Positions 2,781 to 64,000 of a DNA stretch of 64,000 nt are shown here, one piece after another. A program made the position numbers and the translations under genes. Each line of letters opens with the position of its first letter. The first letter of the stretch is position 1. The notes under the pieces were generated by a model. It saw nothing but the letters and a program-made list of their open reading frames with translations. It made no database searches and was not told the DNA's origin. The stretch is taken from NCBI RefSeq assembly GCF_000208925.1, contig NW_001914903.1, forward strand, positions 1 through 64,000, in the 5' to 3' direction. The DNA comes from Entamoeba histolytica HM-1:IMSS (taxonomy: Eukaryota; Evosea; Mastigamoebida; Endamoebidae).

Positions 2781-2801
2781 TTTTCGGGGGAGATCCTTTT
2801 C
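2781..2801. repeat. Left target-site duplication (21 bp)
   Basis: A 21-bp sequence with core CGGGGGAGATCC is exactly repeated at 3057-3077. The two copies bracket the SINE-like element at 2802-3056, as expected after target-primed insertion. Confidence 0.85.
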
Positions 2802-3056
2802 GGAGATGAGCTATAACAGTATGTTATGGATATACTCTCCTTAAAACAACAATATAAAGAATGAGAAATATTATATTACTGATTAAAATCAAAATAAAAG
2901 TCAGGCAGCAACTTAATTGAGGAACCATTTAAGTCGAGCATGCTTGCAAAAACTTTATTTGAATAGAAATAAAGCGTGTTGAAGAAACTGATTCGCTCAC
3001 TTCTCAACATGATGAAAACCTAAAAAATAAGGTTAATCATAATTGATTTCTTTTTC
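2802..3056 (+). mobile_element. SINE-like structured element, copy 1 (255 bp)
   Basis: This segment is nearly identical to the reverse complement of 55876-56142 and is flanked by perfect 21-bp direct repeats. It begins GGAGATGAG and ends in a T-rich tail. Four hairpins can be drawn in order: 2802-2840 (GGAGA/TCTCC plus ATAAC/GTTAT), 2911-2933 (ACTTAATTG/CATTTAAGT), 2953-2974 (CTTTATTT/AAATAAAG) and about 2979-3009 (GTTGAAG/CTTCTCAAC). No ORF is present. The T-rich 3' end would suit a Pol III terminator. I infer a short non-autonomous retroelement or a retroposed structured RNA; I do not recognise the family. Confidence 0.8.
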
Positions 3057-3077
3057 TTTTCGGGGGAGATCCTTTTC
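3057..3077. repeat. Right target-site duplication (21 bp)
   Basis: This is an exact second copy of 2781-2801. The decayed LINE ORF1 begins within a few bases after it (ATG at 3080), so the insertion probably hit the 5' leader of that LINE. Confidence 0.85.
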
Positions 3078-3079
3078 CA

Positions 3080-4499
3080 ATGCAGGAAATACAACAAATT
3101 TTAATGCCATGGCTATTGTATAAAACATTTGGCTCTTGTAAAGAAAAGCAAACAGGTCATAGAAATCCAAGGTCACACAATAAAAAAAGAAATGTCAATA
3201 GCAATAAATGGCACAACAACAATAATAATGGTAAAGGATATACCAAGGAAAAGTGTTTAGAAGTCAAAAAACACAAAGAAAAACAAATAAGAAACAAGGT
3301 AAATACAATAATAATTACACCCATAACAAATATAAATGGTTAACAATAAATGATATACAAAAAGAATAAAAAGAATAACAAAGTAGTGGAATAAAGGAGA
3401 ATACAAAGAAATACTTAAAAAATATGAAGGTAAGAAGAAAAAATGGTATGATATCCTCCAAAAAGTATATTCACTTAAAAAGAAAAAGATAATTGAAAAC
3501 ATTAAGGAAGAAATTAAGGAAAGAACAAAAGATTGTGAAGAAAAAGACATTAAAGCGATTGAAGAAGAAATTAAAAACAAAACCCAAATAAAGAAATGAA
3601 TGAAAGATGTAAAAATGCATGAATAATAAATAGCAAAGAAAGTATAAAGAAAATACAAGAAGAAACAGAAAAGAAAGAAGAAGAAAATGACAAAGAAGAA
3701 ATACTTACACTTCAAAATCAAATTAATTAATTAAAAGAAAAAGTTAAAGAATGCAGTATGAAAAGAGAGTAAGAAGAACAAGTGATTTCAGAAGAAATCA
3801 AGGAAAAAGTAAAGAAATCGTTAGAAAAGAATTTGAAGAAGAAATTACAGAAATGAAAACACAAAATAAAAAGGTTCAAACAAGTTATAATGAAATGAAG
3901 AAAACGAAAAATTAGAGGAAGAAAACACTAAACTACAAGGGAAAATAAATGAGATAAAAGGAAAGAAAATCATTGAAGCAAATAATAAAGAAGAAAAAAT
4001 CCGAAGTATCCAAGCTAATAAAAAGAAGATTGAAAAAGAAAATGAAGAAATGAAGGAAGAAATTGGAAAGCTGAAGAAGAGAAACAAACTGCTAGAATAA
4101 AAGGCAAATACATTAGAGAAGAATGTTGAAATGATAGAAAAAAACACTGAAGAATTAAAGAAAGAAATAAGAGATAAAGAAAAACAAATCTCTGAATATC
4201 AAAAAATTGCAATTAAAAACCAAGAAATTGCAAAAATAACAAGAGAAGAATTAGACAACACACAAAAAGAAAATGAAACACAAAAACAAGTCATATCAAA
4301 ACAACAAGATGATATTGAAAATTTTATTTCACAGAAGGAACTAGAGAAGAAGAAAATGATGACACTTGTAATAAATGCACAACCAATATTGATGAAAACA
4401 TCATCAGTGACGATGAAGATAAACGAAAATACTCCTATGAAAAAGACAGTATTTGAAAACGAAGAGAAAAGCACTGATTGTCAAAAAAACAAGAGATGA
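3080..4499 (+). pseudogene. LINE copy A ORF1 (broken)
   Basis: The N-terminal piece (3080-3343) is rich in N, H, K and R, like the basic N-terminus of ORF1 at 59846. Downstream pieces, including an open stretch at 4131-4499, are long Lys/Glu/Gln coiled-coil sequence, matching the second half of ORF1 in copy B. Multiple stops and frameshifts interrupt the frame. By family, ORF1 is a nucleic-acid-binding protein needed for retrotransposition. Confidence 0.7.
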
Positions 4500-5385
4500 T
4501 AAACAGACAAGAAATACAACAAACCAAAGAAATAAAATTTTAATTGAAGTGTTGTATTGTTTTGCAATTAATTGGTTAAATAAAAAGTTATATAAGAAAT
4601 TAAGAAAGAACAAATTGAAAGTATAATAAAAGTGATAAACATTAATGTAAATAATGAAAAAGAATATATTAATTGTATTAAAATGTCACATAAAAGAAAG
4701 TACTAAACAATACATTAAAATGAAAGTAAATGATATAATATAAAGAAGAATAGAGTGTAATTCAATAATAAAAAATCATAATAAAAAATAACTCTACAGA
4801 AATTGATGAAGAATATCTTAACACTATCATCAATAAAATAAAAGAAATGAAAGTAGAAAATGTTCAAACATTAATTACTACTTTCAAAGAAAAGAAGCTG
4901 ACTGATTAATAAGAGAAATTAATAATAGATGGGTATAATCAGGAAGCAGAATGGATTATCTGCAAGATGATATGAAGAATATTTCAATGGTTATGCACCT
5001 CTATCTCCAAAATAAAATAATAAGAGATAAAAATGATGAAATAAAAGAAATCCTAAAGAAAATAAATAGACTAGAAGATTTGGTCAATGAAATTGTACAG
5101 AATCAAGTGCATCATGAAATTAAATGAATATGATGAAGAAAATATTGAAAACAAATGAATATAAAGAATAAAATACCTAAAAATATATGATGATAATGAT
5201 TAAAGAAAGAATTAAATTTAATAAGGAAGAAATAATCAGAATCAATACAAATAAAATCATGTTTGATTCTAACAAGAAAATTAAAATAAGGAAGAAATAA
5301 AAAATGAAATATACCCAAATAACGATATTACTTTAGAATATTTGAAATCGTTATATGAAACACAGGTGAAATCAAATAAAGAGAA

Positions 5386-7700
5386 TTGAAAATAAAACAA
5401 ATCACCTCGTGGAATGAAAGATATGTCAATTATGATAGTGTCATAATAACAATAAATGAATTAAATTTAAGTATAATGAGAATAAATAACTGGAAAACAC
5501 CAGGAATAGACACTATATATGGGTATTATTTGAAAAGGATGTCATCATCAAGAGAAGCCATTCTCAATATCTTCAATGAATGGTTGAAATTCCATGAAAA
5601 TATCCCATTAGACATGGTAAGTGGAAGAACTTTATTAATCCACAAAGTGATAGGAATGATGTCATTAATTATCGTCCTATCAGTTGTACAAATGTAATTA
5701 TGAAAGTATTTACCTCCATATTAAAAGATAATATTCACAGAAGACTTAATATGAATAGTGAATCATTTAAAATTAGTAATAACCAACTGGGATGTAAACT
5801 ACATTCTCTTGTTGCTAAAGAAGGAATAATTAATAGTTATATGTTAAATCAGCAAAAAGAATAGAAATACCCAAAATATGTGGAGTTATATTATGACATC
5901 AAGAAAGCATATGACACTGTCAACCATGAATGTGTAATTGAATCATTAAAATCTTTTAATCTAGATGGTTTCATCATAAACATAATAGAAAGTATGCTGA
6001 ATAGATGGAAGATACTCATAGGTTATAAATATAATGAATACCTAGGTAGTATTAAATTAAATAGAAGAATTTTACAAGGTGATTCCTTATCCCCTCTACT
6101 CTTCATCATACAGATGAATGTAATTTCTCAAATCATCGAAGAGAAAATCACAAAATCAAATCACACATTATATATGGATGGTTTGAAAATAATGACAGAA
6201 AGTAGTGAAGAAATGTGAATAATCCACTATGAAATTAAAGAAATAATAAGTTACATATTGAGATGAATGAGAAAAAAACCATGAATGGTATTAAAAAACA
6301 ATAAGGAAATATAAAATTGAATGCAAAACATCCCAGTCATTGAAGGTGAGGACTTGTATAAATATTTAGGAATATGGCAGTCCGACGAAATTGATGACAC
6401 CTTCAATTGTAAATCCATCAAAGAAAAAATGATGAAGAAGATGGAAGAAATAAACACTGATGAAAGTAGTAATAGAAGATATATTACAAGAATAAACACT
6501 GAATTAATTTCTGTATTCAGATATTCAGCATCAGTTGTAAATTGGAAAGTAACTTAGACAAAATGGATTTGGAGATAAGAAAATATTTAAGAAAGGCAAA
6601 ATACATTGGTGAAACTCCAAAGATAGGTTGTATGTCCCTCTAGAAGAAATGGGTGAAGGATTAATAAATATAATGGACGAATATGTTATTGAATTAGTTA
6701 GAACAGTGATGTACTACTGTACAAGAGAAAGTGAAATAAGAAATAACATATTAGATAGATGGTACAGTAAGAAATGAACATGGAATAGAATTAAAACAAT
6801 AATTCATAAAATCCCAGAAACAAAAATAGAAGAAATAATAAATGAAGGGATAGAAAAGAAAAAAGAAAAAGAAGTAGTGGTAGAAATAAAAAAATTATTG
6901 ACCGACCAATACATCAAAAAATGGAAGTATCATCAAATAAGTGAACATTTTAGAAGATTATTTGAGTCAAAATAAGTAGATAAAACTACTATAGATAAAT
7001 TATTGAAGTTTATCATTATTAAAAAGAATTCATTTTTACAATTAACTAAAATGCAAGATTGAGCAATGTTCAGATTGTATAGAAAAATGAAAATAAAGAA
7101 AAATAAAATGTTGAAATACTACCAACTTTGTAAATACAATATAACAACAGTAGAACACATTCTACTATCTTGTATTGGTCATAAAAAATCACAAATAGAA
7201 AAACATGACAATATATGCATTATCATATCGATTATTAAGAAAATATAAATGAAATAACCAATATAAAAATCTCTTTATGAAACAATGTTCCAATATAAAG
7301 ACATTATTATGATATGGAACGAACAAATAATGCAAAAAGTGATTGATAATATCACAAAATACCATATATATGCATTAAATAAAAAGAATAAAACTAGTCT
7401 AATATTTGATATGACTATTGTGGCTGATTACAATATTAATTGAGTGTATTTGAAGAAAAGAAACATGTACTATGAATTAAAGAATATTCTAATGAAAATA
7501 GAGAAAATAAAAGATGACAAAATAATTCCAGTAGTAATCTCAATTAATGGAATAATAAATAAAGTATTAAATTAATTAAAGAAATAAAAAATGAGATTAA
7601 TATCATTAAAGAAATTAAAAACCATATAATAAAGAACATGAAGGATGTGATGGAATACTGCTTCAATCACAACCAAACATACTTGTAGAGCTACTAGAAG
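5386..7700 (+). pseudogene. LINE copy A ORF2: reverse transcriptase/endonuclease (broken)
   Basis: Reverse transcriptase blocks appear in order: NNWKTPGID near 5490, NYRPIS (after a frameshift), YYDIKKAYDTVNHE from 5887, LQGDSLSPLL near 6075, and YMDGLKIM near 6175. The last has Gly where the catalytic YxDD box needs its second Asp. YKYLGI follows near 6358. A zinc-knuckle-like CKYN...HILLSC lies at 7130-7180. Near 7400-7560 is an endonuclease-like tail with IIPVVISINGI. Many of the in-frame stops are TGA, but TAA and TAG also occur. This is an inactive relict. Confidence 0.85.
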
Positions 7701-7939
7701 AAGACTCGGTGGACTTGATTAGTCTCCCCTGATGCAGGAACAATAGAAGCTAGTTCTATTAACACTTAAGTAATTGCTTTATTATGTTGAATATATCATT
7801 AACACTATGACTATGTTTTATCTCATTGAATAAAAACAACCACATAATGAACTTTTCTTGATAACACTCAATATATTTAAATCAAAACAGTCATTAACAA
7901 ATATACTTTCATGTTGATAAATAAGTAATATCACCATAA

Positions 7940-8105: not shown

Positions 8106-8275
8106 AAGAAATAGTCAAATAGAAGAATAAAAATAAGAAGGCCCCGTAGCACAGTCGGTAGTGCATCGTACTTATAGGAAAGAGAAATGCGAGGGTCGCG
8201 GGTTCGATCCCCGCCGGGACCATTTTATTTTTCTTTTTTATTTATTTTCTTATTAATATTATCAAATATTAAATA
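8008..8275. repeat. Right arm of the inverted repeat carrying tRNA-Ile
   Basis: Matches the reverse complement of 1327-1593 over 268 bp with a single one-base gap. It includes the complete tRNA and about 54 bp of 3' flank. Confidence 0.93.
8140..8222 (+). tRNA. tRNA-Ile(UAU) with a 10-nt intron
   Basis: Sequence identical to the minus-strand gene at 1380-1462, with the same cloverleaf and T arm GCGGG-TTCGATC-CCCGC. The anticodon TAT follows T33, and a 10-nt insert after position 37 fits a spliced intron. T-rich sequence just downstream (ATTTTATTTTTC) can terminate Pol III. Entamoeba tRNA genes are usually found in tandem arrays; this pair is not in one. Confidence 0.93.
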
Positions 8276-55875: not shown

Positions 55876-56142
55876 AAAAAAAAAAAAAAAAAAGAAATCA
55901 ATTATGATTAACCTTATTTTTAGGTTTTTCATCATGTTGAGAAGTGAGCGAATCAGTTTCTTCAACACGCTTTATTTCTATTGAAATAAAGTTTTTGCAA
56001 GCATGCTCGACTTAAATGGTTCCTCATTTAAGTTGCTGCCTGACTTTTATTTTGATTTTAATGAGTAATATAATATTTCTCATTCTTTATATTGTTGTTT
56101 TAAGGAGAGTATATCCATAACTTACTGTTATAGCTCATCTCC
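55876..56142 (-). mobile_element. SINE-like structured element, copy 2
   Basis: The reverse complement matches 2802-3056 almost base for base apart from small changes and a longer T tail (18 T). Hairpin 2 is perfect here: ACTTAAATG pairs with CATTTAAGT. Hairpin 3 is also perfect (CTTTATTTC/GAAATAAAG). I found no clear target duplication around this copy. Confidence 0.8.
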
Positions 56143-56300
56143 TTTAACCTTCGACACACCTTAAAGAAACCCTATTCCTTGATAATATCCTTATGTTTAA
56201 TTTTTGTGCAACAATATCAATTATATATGCGTCTTCTTTAATAAATGATAATTCTTAATACATAATACCTCCTTAGTAAATAATAATCCTTATAATTAAT

Positions 56301-56370
56301 AATGAATAACAATACACGTTAATGAAGAACAATACACCTCAATGAATAACAATACATGTTAATGAATATT
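56301..56370. repeat. 20-bp tandem repeat, about 3.4 copies
   Basis: The units at 56301, 56321 and 56341 share AATGAA(T/G)AACAATACA followed by a variable 4-base end (CGTT, CCTC, TGTT). A partial fourth unit begins at 56361. It lies between the SINE-like copy and the hairpin repeat. Confidence 0.9.
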
Positions 56371-56379
56371 AATCTTTTA

Positions 56380-56545
56380 TAATAATCACTTCTAATAAAT
56401 ATTAATAATAATAAACAGTTAGTGTTGAATAGATATTATCTCACCAAAAACACGTCATGACCAGACGATAACTGGGAGATTCGAAGCATGGGATTATTTT
56501 AGGGTTTCATGTGGTGTCTCTGACGTGCCATCTTCGAATCCAAAA
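56380..56545 (+). repeat. Hairpin repeat, third copy (no tRNA)
   Basis: Related to 7940-8105 over about 165 bp, with the shared words listed there. Here GATTCGAAG at 56479-56487 pairs perfectly with CTTCGAATC at 56532-56540, and ATGG with CCAT extends the stem after a one-base bulge. No tRNA follows; the EMC8/9-like gene starts 82 bp downstream. Confidence 0.7.
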
Positions 56546-59845: not shown

Positions 59846-61437
59846 ATGCATTACAGGAGACACCACAAAAAATACAGAAAAACAAATAAACAAAGAAGAA
59901 GAAATTCATATCAACCAAGAAATATAAATGACAGAAGAATGAGTGAAAATAAGTATTATCTGTATGGACAGAGATACATGAATAATCACACTAATCATTA
60001 CAATAACAATTATTACCATAACTATCACAACATTGATGATACAAATCGTTTCACTCATCACTTCATTCATAATCATCGTCATAAACACTTTAATAATAAT
60101 TTCAACAGAAATAAACAATATCAATATAATAGAAATAAATATCATAATAACACTCAAAGAAGGTATAAACAATATCAAAATAAGAAACAAAACAGAAATA
60201 AAAAAAAAGAAATCATTGAAATACAAAACCAAGAATATTGGAAAAGACTCTTTGAAGAAGAAATTAAAATACTTACACCACAAGAAGTAGAAGAAATTAA
60301 AAATACCAAGATTAAAGAATATACATCATCAACAATATGGAGAAGATGGTATTTTCTTGCACGAGAAAAAACAAAAACAATCAGAATGGAAGAAGAAACT
60401 ATTAGTATGACGATGGAAGAAGATGATAAACAATTCAATCAAATAGAAATAAATGATAATAGAATATACAATAACTATGTAATGAGTATTGAAAGTGAAG
60501 AAGACGATGATAAAGATTCTACGAGAGTAGAAGCTAGGCTTGCTGAGGAGAAGAAGAAGCTGGTAGAAGAGGAGAAGAGGCTTGCTGAGGAGAAGAAGAT
60601 CACTAAAGGAGAGAAGAAGAGGCTGGTAGAAAAGGAAGAAGAAAACAGTAAAAAGAAAAAAAGAGTAGAAGAAATAGAAAAGAAAGTGGAGGAGGATATG
60701 AAAGAGAAAGAAGAAATGAAAAAGGAATTACAAATAAAAGACCAAACCATAAAAAAACTAACTAAGGATATTATGGCATTAAAGAAGAAGCATGAGAAGG
60801 AGATAAACACAAAAAACCACGAGTGTGATAAAAAATATTCAAATTCAATGCTGAATCTGAAAGGAAAAGGTCTGAAGTAAATAATTTAACACAACAATTG
60901 CTCTTCCTGAAAGATAAATTATCTAAATTAGAAAACGAAAATACACAAGAAGAAAAGAAGAAAGATGAGGTAAATTACAATATAACAGACTCATCAGAAT
61001 CACAAATAGTAATTGACCTCTCCCCCAATGTGGTAGTAGCTGATGAAATATCATCAAGTGAAGATGATCTTCCAAAAAAAAGAAAGTTAATGCAGAAATC
61101 CATTGAAGAAATTGATATTCAGCATAAGAAGATCACCACATTTGAATTAGACAATCAAAAAAAACGGGGGAAGCAAACAGATAGAAAAGAAGAAATTTTA
61201 ACACTTTATAAATGTTTTGTTTTGAAATTATTTGAAAGAAAATTAAGAGGTCAACTTAAAGAAGAAATAATAGAAAGATTAATACATGAATTTGGAATTA
61301 AAGTAAATGATATTAATGAATATAAAGAAATATTAAAGAAGACATTTAAAATAAAGAATGAAATAAAAAGAGAAATCAATAGAATAATGGAGGAAGAAAT
61401 AATAAAACATCAATGGAAAGATAATGAATTAAAATAA
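59846..61437 (+). pseudogene. LINE copy B ORF1 (one frameshift)
   Basis: 59846-60880 encodes 344 residues: a basic H/N/R/Y-rich N-terminus (MHYRRHHKKYRKTN, then RRNSYQPRN and others), a segment LTPQEVEEIKNTKIKEYTSS, then a long Lys/Glu coiled coil. A single -1 shift in an A6 run near 60833 joins it to 60898-61437, ending KHQWKDNELK. Together this is about 530 residues. By family ORF1 binds nucleic acid. Apart from the shift it is open. Confidence 0.85.
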
Positions 61438-61449
61438 ACAATAACTAGA

Positions 61450-64000
61450 ATGAACAAGAAAGAAGAAATAGAAGAAGAGGAAGTAATGAAAATATTTAAA
61501 GAAGAAGAAATGAAAGAACAAGAAGATATACAATTTATTAACTACTATTACAATAAGAAGAAAGTACATCAAATAATTAATATTATTAATAAAAAATGAA
61601 ATATTAATCAATACATTAGATGATTATTACCATTATATTAAATCAGTATCTTCCACTATTAACATCATGAATAAAAATAAACAAGAAAGAAGTGGAAAGA
61701 GAAGTATAGAAAGAATATTACAATCAAAAATATGTAGATTAAGAGATTTACTCCATAATAAACAATATATGAAATTAAAAAGAATATTACATATTAAGAA
61801 ATATGATATATATCATATTAAAATAAAAACAAATAAACAAATAAACTATTATAAATACCTCCGAAAGATGAAAATAATAGAAATAGAAGCAAGAAAGAAT
61901 AATTTGAAAAGAATAAGATTGAATTATAAAATGATGAAATATGGAAAAAGACAACATCTAAATAAGCCTAAAGAAGATGAATATCCAGATAATATCTCCA
62001 CTATTAATTTCTGGAAATGAATCTATGAAACTAATACCAATATAGATTTCCTGAATATTAATTTATATGAAATATTAATTGAAAACAGAATTAATAATAG
62101 AATGGCTATAATCACTCCCAATGAACTAGAGTGTGCTATTAAATTTATTGCTAACTGGAAGGCACCGGGAGTTGATAAAATACAAGGATTTTGGATTAAA
62201 TATTTAGAACAACCAAAGAAATACTTATTAAAATTATTTAATGAATGGTTAAATAATCCTAATGAAATCCCTCTCCATTTTATTCAAGGAAGGACAATAT
62301 TAATATATAATAAAAGTAATAAATTGGATCCACAGAATTACAGACCAATAATTTGTTTAAATTGTCTGTTAAAAGTGTATACATCAATATTAAAGATGAA
62401 AATAGAAAGCCAATTGATGCTAAATCCAATTGAAAAACAATTATCATTAAATCAAATTGGATGTAAGAAATACACATATGCATCAAAAGAAGGATTATTA
62501 TACAACACTATAATCAATCAATTATTAATAAAGGCTAAATGGAAGTGGTAGAAACATATTATGACGTCTCCAAAGCATATGATAGTATTAATCATCAATG
62601 GATTAAACAATGCTTAATATATTTTAATATCCCACTTGTAGTAATTAATAGTATATTATATATATTAAATAATACATATCTTAATTTATATTATAATCAA
62701 GAAAGTGTAGGTATTATTAATGTAGAAAGATGAATAATACAAGGTGACAGCCTATCTCCACTCTTATTTGTATTATCTATTGATGTATTATCTAAACAAT
62801 TAGATAAACAAATAAACAAATTAAATAATAAAATGAATGGAGAAGAAAAACAAGTCAAGTTAAACCACATATTGTATATGGACGATTTAAAAATAATGAC
62901 TAATAGCCTCGATGAAATGGAAAAAGCATACAAATTAACTAAAGAAATATTTAATGCAATAGGATTAAAAATTAATGTAGAAAAGAGTGGGATAATGACT
63001 AATATTAATAGTCAAATAAATAGTGAATTAGCTGAATTACCAAGAGTAACTAATGATAATCATTATAAATACCTTGGTATTGAAATATGAGATAAAGTAA
63101 ATATTAATAAATACTGTACAAGAATATTAAATGATGTATCTTCTATTTTATCATCATTAAACACTATGAAATATAGCATTCTCAATACAATAAGAAAGAT
63201 TAATAGTGATATAATCTCAAAATTAAGATATGGATTTTGTATTGTCCCATGGAAACTAGGAGAATTGGTGAAGATAGATAAACAAATAAGAAAATCATTG
63301 ATTCACCTCCAATTATATAGTAGAAATATCCCAAAAAGTAGACTATATGTTAAAATAAATGAATTGGGATTAGGATTAATGTCAGCAAGAGATGAATGTG
63401 CTAAAGAATTATTAAGAATATATTTAAAATATAAGTGGAGATCAAGCACAGAAATATGAGAAACGATAGAAACAATAAAAGAAAATCCAAATGGAATAAT
63501 TAAAAGAATGAAGAAAACATTTGGTAAGAAGATTAATTTTAATGAATTAATGAATGTAATAGAAATAAATGAAAGAAAGCACAATGTAAAGGAAATATTT
63601 GAATGGGTAAATAATGAATTAAATGAAAGATATTTAAATGAATGGAAAGAAAAGAAATGTGGTGAATATATAAGATGTGCAAATGGCACTTTTAATGATA
63701 AGAAATTAACAGTAGCCACTTGGAGGTCATTAAATATAAAAAGAAATGCATTCCTCCAAATAGTAAAGATGCAAGAAGGAGTAACTATGACAGGAAATAT
63801 TAAATCAAAAATACTCCAAAATGATGCTTTAAAATATTGTAAACATTGCCCTAACACAATTGCATCTATTAATCATATATTGTTATGATGTAATGAAAAA
63901 GAATCAAATATTAAAACATGATTATGTTTGTAAACAAATATTTAAAGACTTATTAATTACACATTTTAATGAATTTGATGCTATCGACTTTAATAATCCT
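61450..64000 (+). pseudogene. LINE copy B ORF2: reverse transcriptase and endonuclease (few lesions)
   Basis: Starts MNKKEEIEEEE 12 nt after ORF1. A frameshift in an A6 run near 61595 and another near 62540 occur. RT motifs: NWKAPGVDKI, NYRPIICLNCLLKVY, YYDVSKAYDSINHQW (from 62557), IQGDSLSPLLF (near 62740) and the intact YMDDLKIM (near 62875), then YKYLGI. The zinc knuckle CKHC...HILL-TGA-C is at 63838-63891. All stops between 62539 and 63888 in that frame are TGA (62731, 63088, 63457, 63886), and the one at 62018 is also TGA. A final shift near 63905 leads into DYVCKQIFKDLLITHFNEFD. Confidence 0.88.

Follow-up and report, generated by a model that had tools for sequence, protein, structure and literature searches.

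The segment at positions 2802 to 3056 (+) of the analysed window, a stretch of 64,000 nucleotides from Entamoeba histolytica HM-1:IMSS, is, judged by its sequence, a 5′-truncated insertion of SINE2, a non-autonomous retroposon of the EhSINE2 family. We find that SINE2 and the coding end of LINE2 ORF2 have a predicted 3′ hairpin domain in common, which is supported by covariation. The element family is already known; the RNA fold is, within a limited literature search, so far unreported and is the new part of this analysis. The family, the direction of the element, its target duplications and the common folded 3′ domain are read from the DNA itself. Overall, we consider it quite likely that the insertion is a truncated EhSINE2 that arose from an RNA polymerase III transcript, through recognition of its 3′ hairpins by LINE2 and target-primed reverse transcription.

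The insertion (copy 1) lies between perfect 21-bp target-site duplications, 2781 to 2801 and 3057 to 3077 (both +), which consist of the same letters, and it includes a short T tract at its 3′ end (3051 to 3055). Both features had been described correctly in the first-pass annotation, as had the lack of resemblance to a known RNA: nothing in the element comes near the gathering score of any Rfam family, and there is no tRNA call. The annotation had also treated the 255-bp unit as a whole element that starts at a hairpin. The sequence upstream continues, however, in 39 of the 39 other copies with flanks compared, and the 5′ end, mostly GATTCGAAGATGGCACG, lies about 350 to 420 nt further upstream in 37 of 40 copies compared. 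Because other copies extend upstream to this common 5′ end, position 2802 is a truncation point and not the 5′ end of the element, and copy 1 represents the final 255 bp of an element of about 625 bp. Internal 20-bp repeats are missing from copy 1, as expected from the truncation. The opposite strand was rejected as the sense strand, being contradicted by LINE orientation and by the side of the truncation. Counted by eye, there are five local stems within the 255 nt rather than the four annotated. The inverted second match in the window is real (97.2% identity over 254 bases), and, as annotated for hairpins, pairing is better there in the inner part of hairpin A, which is mismatched in copy 1 and mismatch-free in copy 2.

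The family, which had gone unrecognised, could be assigned from copy 2, a full-length SINE2 of 647 bp (55894 to 56540, −) followed by a T18 tail (55876 to 55893, −). It carries 3.5 internal 20-bp repeats (56300 to 56368, −) with the Tandem Repeats Finder (TRF) unit TAATGAATAACAATACACGT. This is the same repeat as the published 20-bp unit of EhSINE2, motif AATGAATAACAATACACG/CTT/C (PMC3716655, in the part available to us). The 52 copies with both ends assigned measure about 525 to 690 bp, mostly 600 to 670, in line with the EhSINE2 range of more than 400 bp up to about 600 bp; copy 1 keeps only 255 bp of this. Target duplications are pyrimidine-rich (pyrimidine content judged by eye), as in EhSINE2, and the 3′ end is common with LINE2. 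Because the internal repeat, the length and the T-rich duplications agree with the published description, we assign the family to EhSINE2. The available parts of PMC3716655 and PMC2657916 likewise give EhSINE2 and Ed_SINE2 a 20-bp repeat of varying number, a length of about 600 bp, pyrimidine-rich duplications and a 3′ end shared with LINE2; copy 1 differs in being 5′-truncated and without repeats. We found no mention of RNA folds, a pseudoknot or a scarcity of T4 runs in those parts.

A genome-wide search covered 16.95 Mb in 392 contigs and found at least 56 copies. Protein comparisons place the host as E. histolytica or a very close relative such as E. nuttalli: a protease encoded in the window is 87% identical to its counterpart in E. 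dispar, 62% to that of E. marina and 50% to that of E. invadens, and the triosephosphate isomerase and cysteine synthase of the genome agree with the E. histolytica entries PDB 1m6j and 4il5 at 250 of 250 and 335 of 337 residues. With the 255-bp query, the best 40 of 142 candidates were about 97 to 100% identical over nearly the whole query. Allowing up to 3 mismatches, the 3′ pattern occurs at 56 places and the 5′ pattern at 53, compared with 0 for a reversed-pattern control. A 5′ end was assigned by script in 52 of the 56 copies. The remaining four are copy 1, L036 (truncated, with an upstream match of 47 nt only), L017 (rearranged, its 5′ pattern found further upstream) and L109 (an old copy). 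When target duplications of 13 nt or more are counted and one mismatch is allowed, 43 of the 52 copies have one, compared with 18 of 416 mispaired flank controls (medians of 22 and 10 nt). The view of the element as a mobile SINE that duplicates its target is thus borne out genome-wide. Among the nine copies without such a duplication, four belong to the swapped pairs described below and the others are L028, L103, L107, L108 and L112; three of the five older copies (<93% identity) have no duplication of 13 nt. The T tails of the 56 copies have a median length of 15 (range 2 to 38).

In the flank comparison, no target duplication surrounds copy 2 itself (best 10 nt). Copy 2 and a further copy beyond the window (L042, C349:64587-65232, +) are inverted relative to each other, and each bears the other's target duplications. 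The same flank swap is seen between L011 (C311) and L013 (C115), and in both pairs the swapped flanks match in both directions over 18 to 22 nt. The swap between copy 2 and L042 is as would follow from inversion of the intervening ~8 kb or from an assembly orientation error; for the swapped pairs generally, the choice is between recombination between copies and assembly error. Swapped target duplications mark SINE2 repeats as sites either of rearrangement or of assembly error.

LINE machinery had been proposed for the mobility of the element, and there is indeed a partner LINE whose 3′ end resembles that of the SINE. Among 30 reverse-transcriptase loci fetched, four match the final ~159 SINE bases at about 70% identity, and a fifth (L069) matched the RNA covariance model. 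The SINE-like stretch lies downstream of the LINE reverse transcriptase, in the same orientation. LINE 3′ ends mostly read TAATAATTGACC and then T's, SINE ends TAATTGATTTC and then T's, so that an AATTGA box and a T run terminate both. This comparison draws on 40 LINE 3′ ends listed from 250 candidates, of which 20 were fetched, three of them from the SINE-matching reverse-transcriptase loci, and 19 distinct ends were used. Translated in frame at four loci, the SINE-like stretch encodes the ORF2 C-terminus, with EENPIEDIS.N as its last residues. The TGA stands two bases before the T tail (TGA-CC-T(n)), leaving no 3′UTR. Upstream of this stretch, stops or frameshifts interrupt all four loci; L063 also carries a stop within it.

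At seven of the eight places fetched, about 2.5 kb separate the reverse transcriptase from the LINE 5′ end upstream of it, and the first ~30 bases of the LINE resemble the SINE head. From the length (about 4.8 kb at one locus, C224; Ed_LINE2 has 4,735 bp) and the ORF layout, the partner is probably LINE2; we take EhLINE2 to be an R4-type non-LTR retrotransposon. The pairing of LINE2 with SINE2 is already published, and the LINE2 of E. dispar is listed as R4 type, in the part of a table in PMC3747384 available to us. EhLINE2 and Ed_LINE2 resemble the SINE in the 3′ ~159 bp, in about the first 30 nt and in the T tail; unlike the SINE, they code for ORF1 and ORF2, and their 3′ RNA domain is coding sequence. 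In the window, part of the reverse transcriptase of a partner-type LINE lies at 62533 to 63087 (+), with the 3′ end just past the window (C349:64163-64563; L042:208-365). An ORF1-like frame of a LINE2-like copy occupies 59846 to 60880 (+) and begins MHYRRHHKKYRK; other LINE2-like copies have the same ORF1 start codon within a few bases of their 5′ ends.

SINE2 would be transcribed into an RNA of about 630 nt that ends in U's, most likely by RNA polymerase III. The first-pass annotation had suggested a Pol III transcript, a proposal that gains indirect support from most copies and meets contrary evidence in the older ones. Before the tail, 45 of 52 copies have no run of four T, despite 8 to 12 A4 runs. 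Copy L009 would be expected to hold 5.0 T4 runs and has none; equally T4-free sequences came up once in 2000 dinucleotide shuffles and ten times in 2000 simple shuffles. Four LINE loci have 2.3 to 11.7 T4 runs per kb. An early TTTT does occur in 11 of 38 distinct 5′ rows, in two of them from a later change. Scored against the A-box and B-box consensus sequences, SINE2 has an A-box-like match of 9/12 at nt 11 and a weak B-box-like match of 9/11 at nt 54, which 4.9% of shuffles equal. The scarcity of T4 favours Pol III transcription; the older copies with TTTT, the weak box matches and the polyadenylation reported for the related EhSINE1 speak against it.

These older copies spread nonetheless, as they could if SINE2 were a Pol II transcript polyadenylated like EhSINE1; the T-rich target or the DNA primer, rather than a U-ended RNA, would then supply the T tail of SINE2. 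SINE2 targets are indeed T-rich, and PMC2996970, in the part available, describes the transcripts of EhSINE1 as both abundant and polyadenylated. We regard a Pol II origin as a serious possibility, if a somewhat improbable one: a poly(A) run at the 3′ junction is present in none of the 40 copies with 3′ flanks compared, and the lack of T4 from most copies of a sequence so rich in A4 also argues against it.

The 3′ RNA domain lies at 2891 to 3050 (+) in copy 1 and 55894 to 56053 (−) in copy 2. It is identified by alignment A1, by independent folds and by a covariance model (R1), which scores the two at 182.5 and 188.3 bits; both copies are themselves part of the model's alignment. In copy 1, stem A spans about 2902-2946, stem B 2953-2974, stem C 2975-3011 and the terminal stem about 3017-3036, with the AATTGA box after it (all +). 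Computed apart, the SINE and LINE consensus folds have z scores of −6.0 and −4.3, and in each case none of 500 dinucleotide shuffles folded as low. A1 is a sequence-only alignment of 42 SINE rows (from 56 3′ ends after removal of duplicates, both window copies kept) and 19 LINE rows. Over the last ~150 nt, the independent folds have 50 pairs in the SINE and 47 in the LINE. From these, we chose as shared the 29 that fall at identical columns; they form the long stem A (outer and inner part) and stem C.

The annotated conservation of hairpins is upheld by compensatory changes between SINE and LINE 3′ ends. Five of the 29 common pairs are changed on both sides (A-U/U-A, A-U/C-G, C-G/A-U, A-U/G-C and G-C/A-U) and two on one side. 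Random placement of the same substitutions in stems A and C gives a mean of 0.63 double changes, and none of 20000 trials reached five. Similarly, 29 of 31 SINE-derived pairs are kept, compared with a mean of 21.9 under random placement (0/20000 reach the observed value). With all 50 SINE pairs, 64.2% of LINE cells pair, compared with at most 46.8% when slid by up to 4 columns; with all 47 LINE pairs, 75.5% of SINE cells pair, compared with at most 43.3%. In the combined groups, pairing extends to 86.1% of cells; shuffling among sequences lowers this to 82.2%, and sliding to 32 to 41%. The covariation score is 0.129, compared with 0.075 shuffled (0/500 as high) and up to 0.072 slid; this covariation rests on one deep comparison, of the SINE lineage with the LINE lineage. 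Two of five measures, the count of double-changed pairs (55/500 shuffles as high) and of pair types (496/500), show no excess over shuffles, perhaps owing to the dominance of two groups. The predicted SINE and LINE folds each contain stem B, about 3 columns off register in the sequence-only alignment. The terminal stem is partly shared, and helices 3 and 5 pair in 68% and 73% of cells.

The similarity to LINE2 might instead reflect only descent from ORF2, or gene conversion, under amino acid constraint and with no RNA structure selected. The stretch is in frame and ends ORF2. The codon positions vary almost alike among LINE copies (3.0, 3.5 and 4.4%), so that no selection sparing the third position is visible. 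Yet mere descent seems unlikely to us, given five pair-keeping double changes where 0.63 are expected and the fate of a decayed LINE2-like 3′ end in the window (10812 to 10970, +; R1 28.6 bits), which served as a control. This copy is of similar divergence, with 109 of 156 bases alike, and has lost the structure: it keeps 18 of the 29 pairs and breaks 11, with no compensation. An extended 3′ fold in LINE1-type ends was rejected: a consensus built from 22 distinct ends, which include a few that are not LINE1, shows none (z 0.44), and the sole structure to stand out is a 7-bp terminal hairpin some 17 nt ahead of the T-rich end.

We propose the following route for the mobilisation of SINE2. The ORF2 protein of LINE2 would recognise the 3′ hairpin domain of SINE2 as a mimic of the 3′ end of LINE2 RNA, where the mimicked domain corresponds to the last ~50 codons of ORF2. 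The protein would nick a T-rich target, an A-rich DNA 3′ end would anneal to the U tail, and target-primed reverse transcription would then copy the RNA. The T runs of varying length could result from slippage on the U tail. An early stop of copying at 2802 would leave the truncated copy between its 21-bp duplications. The choice of polymerase, the recognition by protein and the priming on the U tail are steps that we infer from these sequences. We further propose, tentatively and as an idea nearly as easy to believe as to doubt, that the last ~50 ORF2 codons double as an RNA address that the LINE2 protein must bind. SINE2 would then be a stripped parasite that kept the fold, dropped the coding and added a 5′ pseudoknot for binding or protection, its pairs having been kept by matching changes since the split. 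A multi-hairpin domain inside coding sequence would provide a testable answer to how an Entamoeba LINE selects its own RNA and that of its SINE, with a U tail replacing poly(A) in the proposed recognition scheme, and the exact base pairs are given as targets for mutation.

The shared domain has parallels in other systems. In stringent-type LINE/SINE pairs, as described in the available parts of PMC3747384 and PMC5135761, the SINE takes over the LINE 3′ end and 3′ stem-loops are conserved. Here too, the 3′ ends are homologous (about 70% over 159 bp, in the same orientation) and compensatory changes support the 3′ stems (five of 29 pairs, with stem B and the terminal stem out of register). Those pairs, according to the same parts, have short stem-loops in the 3′UTR and A tails, whereas the Entamoeba pair has several hairpins in the ORF2 coding end and T tails. 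R2 has a folded 3′UTR that is bound by the R2 protein (PMC12222951, in the part available), and SINE2 and LINE2 likewise have a folded 3′ RNA. Unlike R2, the Entamoeba pair has no rDNA target, no full HDV ribozyme signature and no 3′UTR.

The 5′ head of SINE2 is a candidate pseudoknot, for which support is weaker than for the 3′ domain. P1 joins nucleotides 1-9 to 55-63 and P2 joins 12-20 to 84-92; the two stems cross each other and are free of mismatches in L009 and like copies; the head of copy 2 (56449 to 56540, −) has a CC to TT change in P2. Crossing perfect stems of 9 and 9 bp occurred in none of 2000 shuffles, and the energy of the nested fold is unremarkable (z −1.2). Of 41 distinct heads, 38 were used; L152, L153 and the divergent head at window position 1500 were dropped as unaligned at nucleotide 1, and these three are divergent and pair more poorly by eye. 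In the 38 rows, 92.8% of cells pair, compared with 91.4% shuffled (0/500 as high) and 30 to 40% slid. One P2 pair changes from C-G to U-A in eight rows and one P3 pair from G-C to A-U in ten. The covariation score is 0.116, compared with 0.089 shuffled (0/500) and 0.090 for the best slid version; double-changed pairs (112/500 shuffles as high) and pair types (423/500) show no excess over shuffles in these rows.

The helix order of the HDV fold is P1-P2-P3-P1′-P4-P2′. The SINE2 head follows this order, its P1 starts at nucleotide 1 of young elements, as in an HDV-like pseudoknot, and its crossing stems are those that no shuffle produced. The head might accordingly be a self-cleaving ribozyme of HDV type that, as in R2 elements, releases the 5′ end of the RNA. 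The available part of PMC3774820 describes the HDV-like fold, its order in part, and the 5′ HDV-like ribozyme of R2, whose 5′ RNA is folded and pseudoknotted as in the SINE2 head. Self-cleavage is nevertheless very improbable, and we rejected it: there is no Rfam ribozyme match up to E 10, the candidate catalytic C in J4/2 is T in eight of 38 rows, a 9-nt joint separates P2 and P3, P1 lacks its end pair in 16 of 38 rows, and older copies have common sequence upstream of P1. These older heads (L107, L108, L112; L140, L144-L147) share an extension of about 12 or more bases ahead of GATTCG, reading CTTGAGATAAGG or similar, and most of them also hold TTTT; they represent an older subfamily with a longer 5′ end.

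A SINE-type 5′ pseudoknot in LINE2 was rejected, as it was not seen in the seven LINE 5′ ends read, where only about 30 nt are alike. Eight places had been fetched, of which L135 had no match, and one of the seven ends begins with 31 SINE bases. A LINE2-like copy, L137 (C370:200-1100), has first 31 bases identical to the SINE2 5′ end; it appears to be a SINE-LINE chimera, perhaps of template-switching origin.

Within the window, copy 1 matches copy 2 only from the truncation point on, which might suggest a stand-alone structured ncRNA gene, or part of some unrelated large repeat, with no mobility of its own. Such an origin is scarcely credible and is refuted by the copy survey, with its 56 copies, target duplications, common 5′ end and LINE-related 3′ end.

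Other repeats surround copy 1 in the window. Two inverted copies of one tRNA-like gene lie at 1380-1462 (−) and 8140-8222 (+). Each adjoins a divergent SINE 5′ end (1500-1640 and about 8102-7948, respectively), which is probably SINE3-like. The two tRNA-like/SINE pairs enclose a LINE1-like element at about 3062-7790 (+; limits by eye), with its reverse transcriptase at 5664-6251. Copy 1 sits at the 5′ edge of this LINE1-like element, and the SINE2 copy L012 has the same sequence directly downstream as copy 1.
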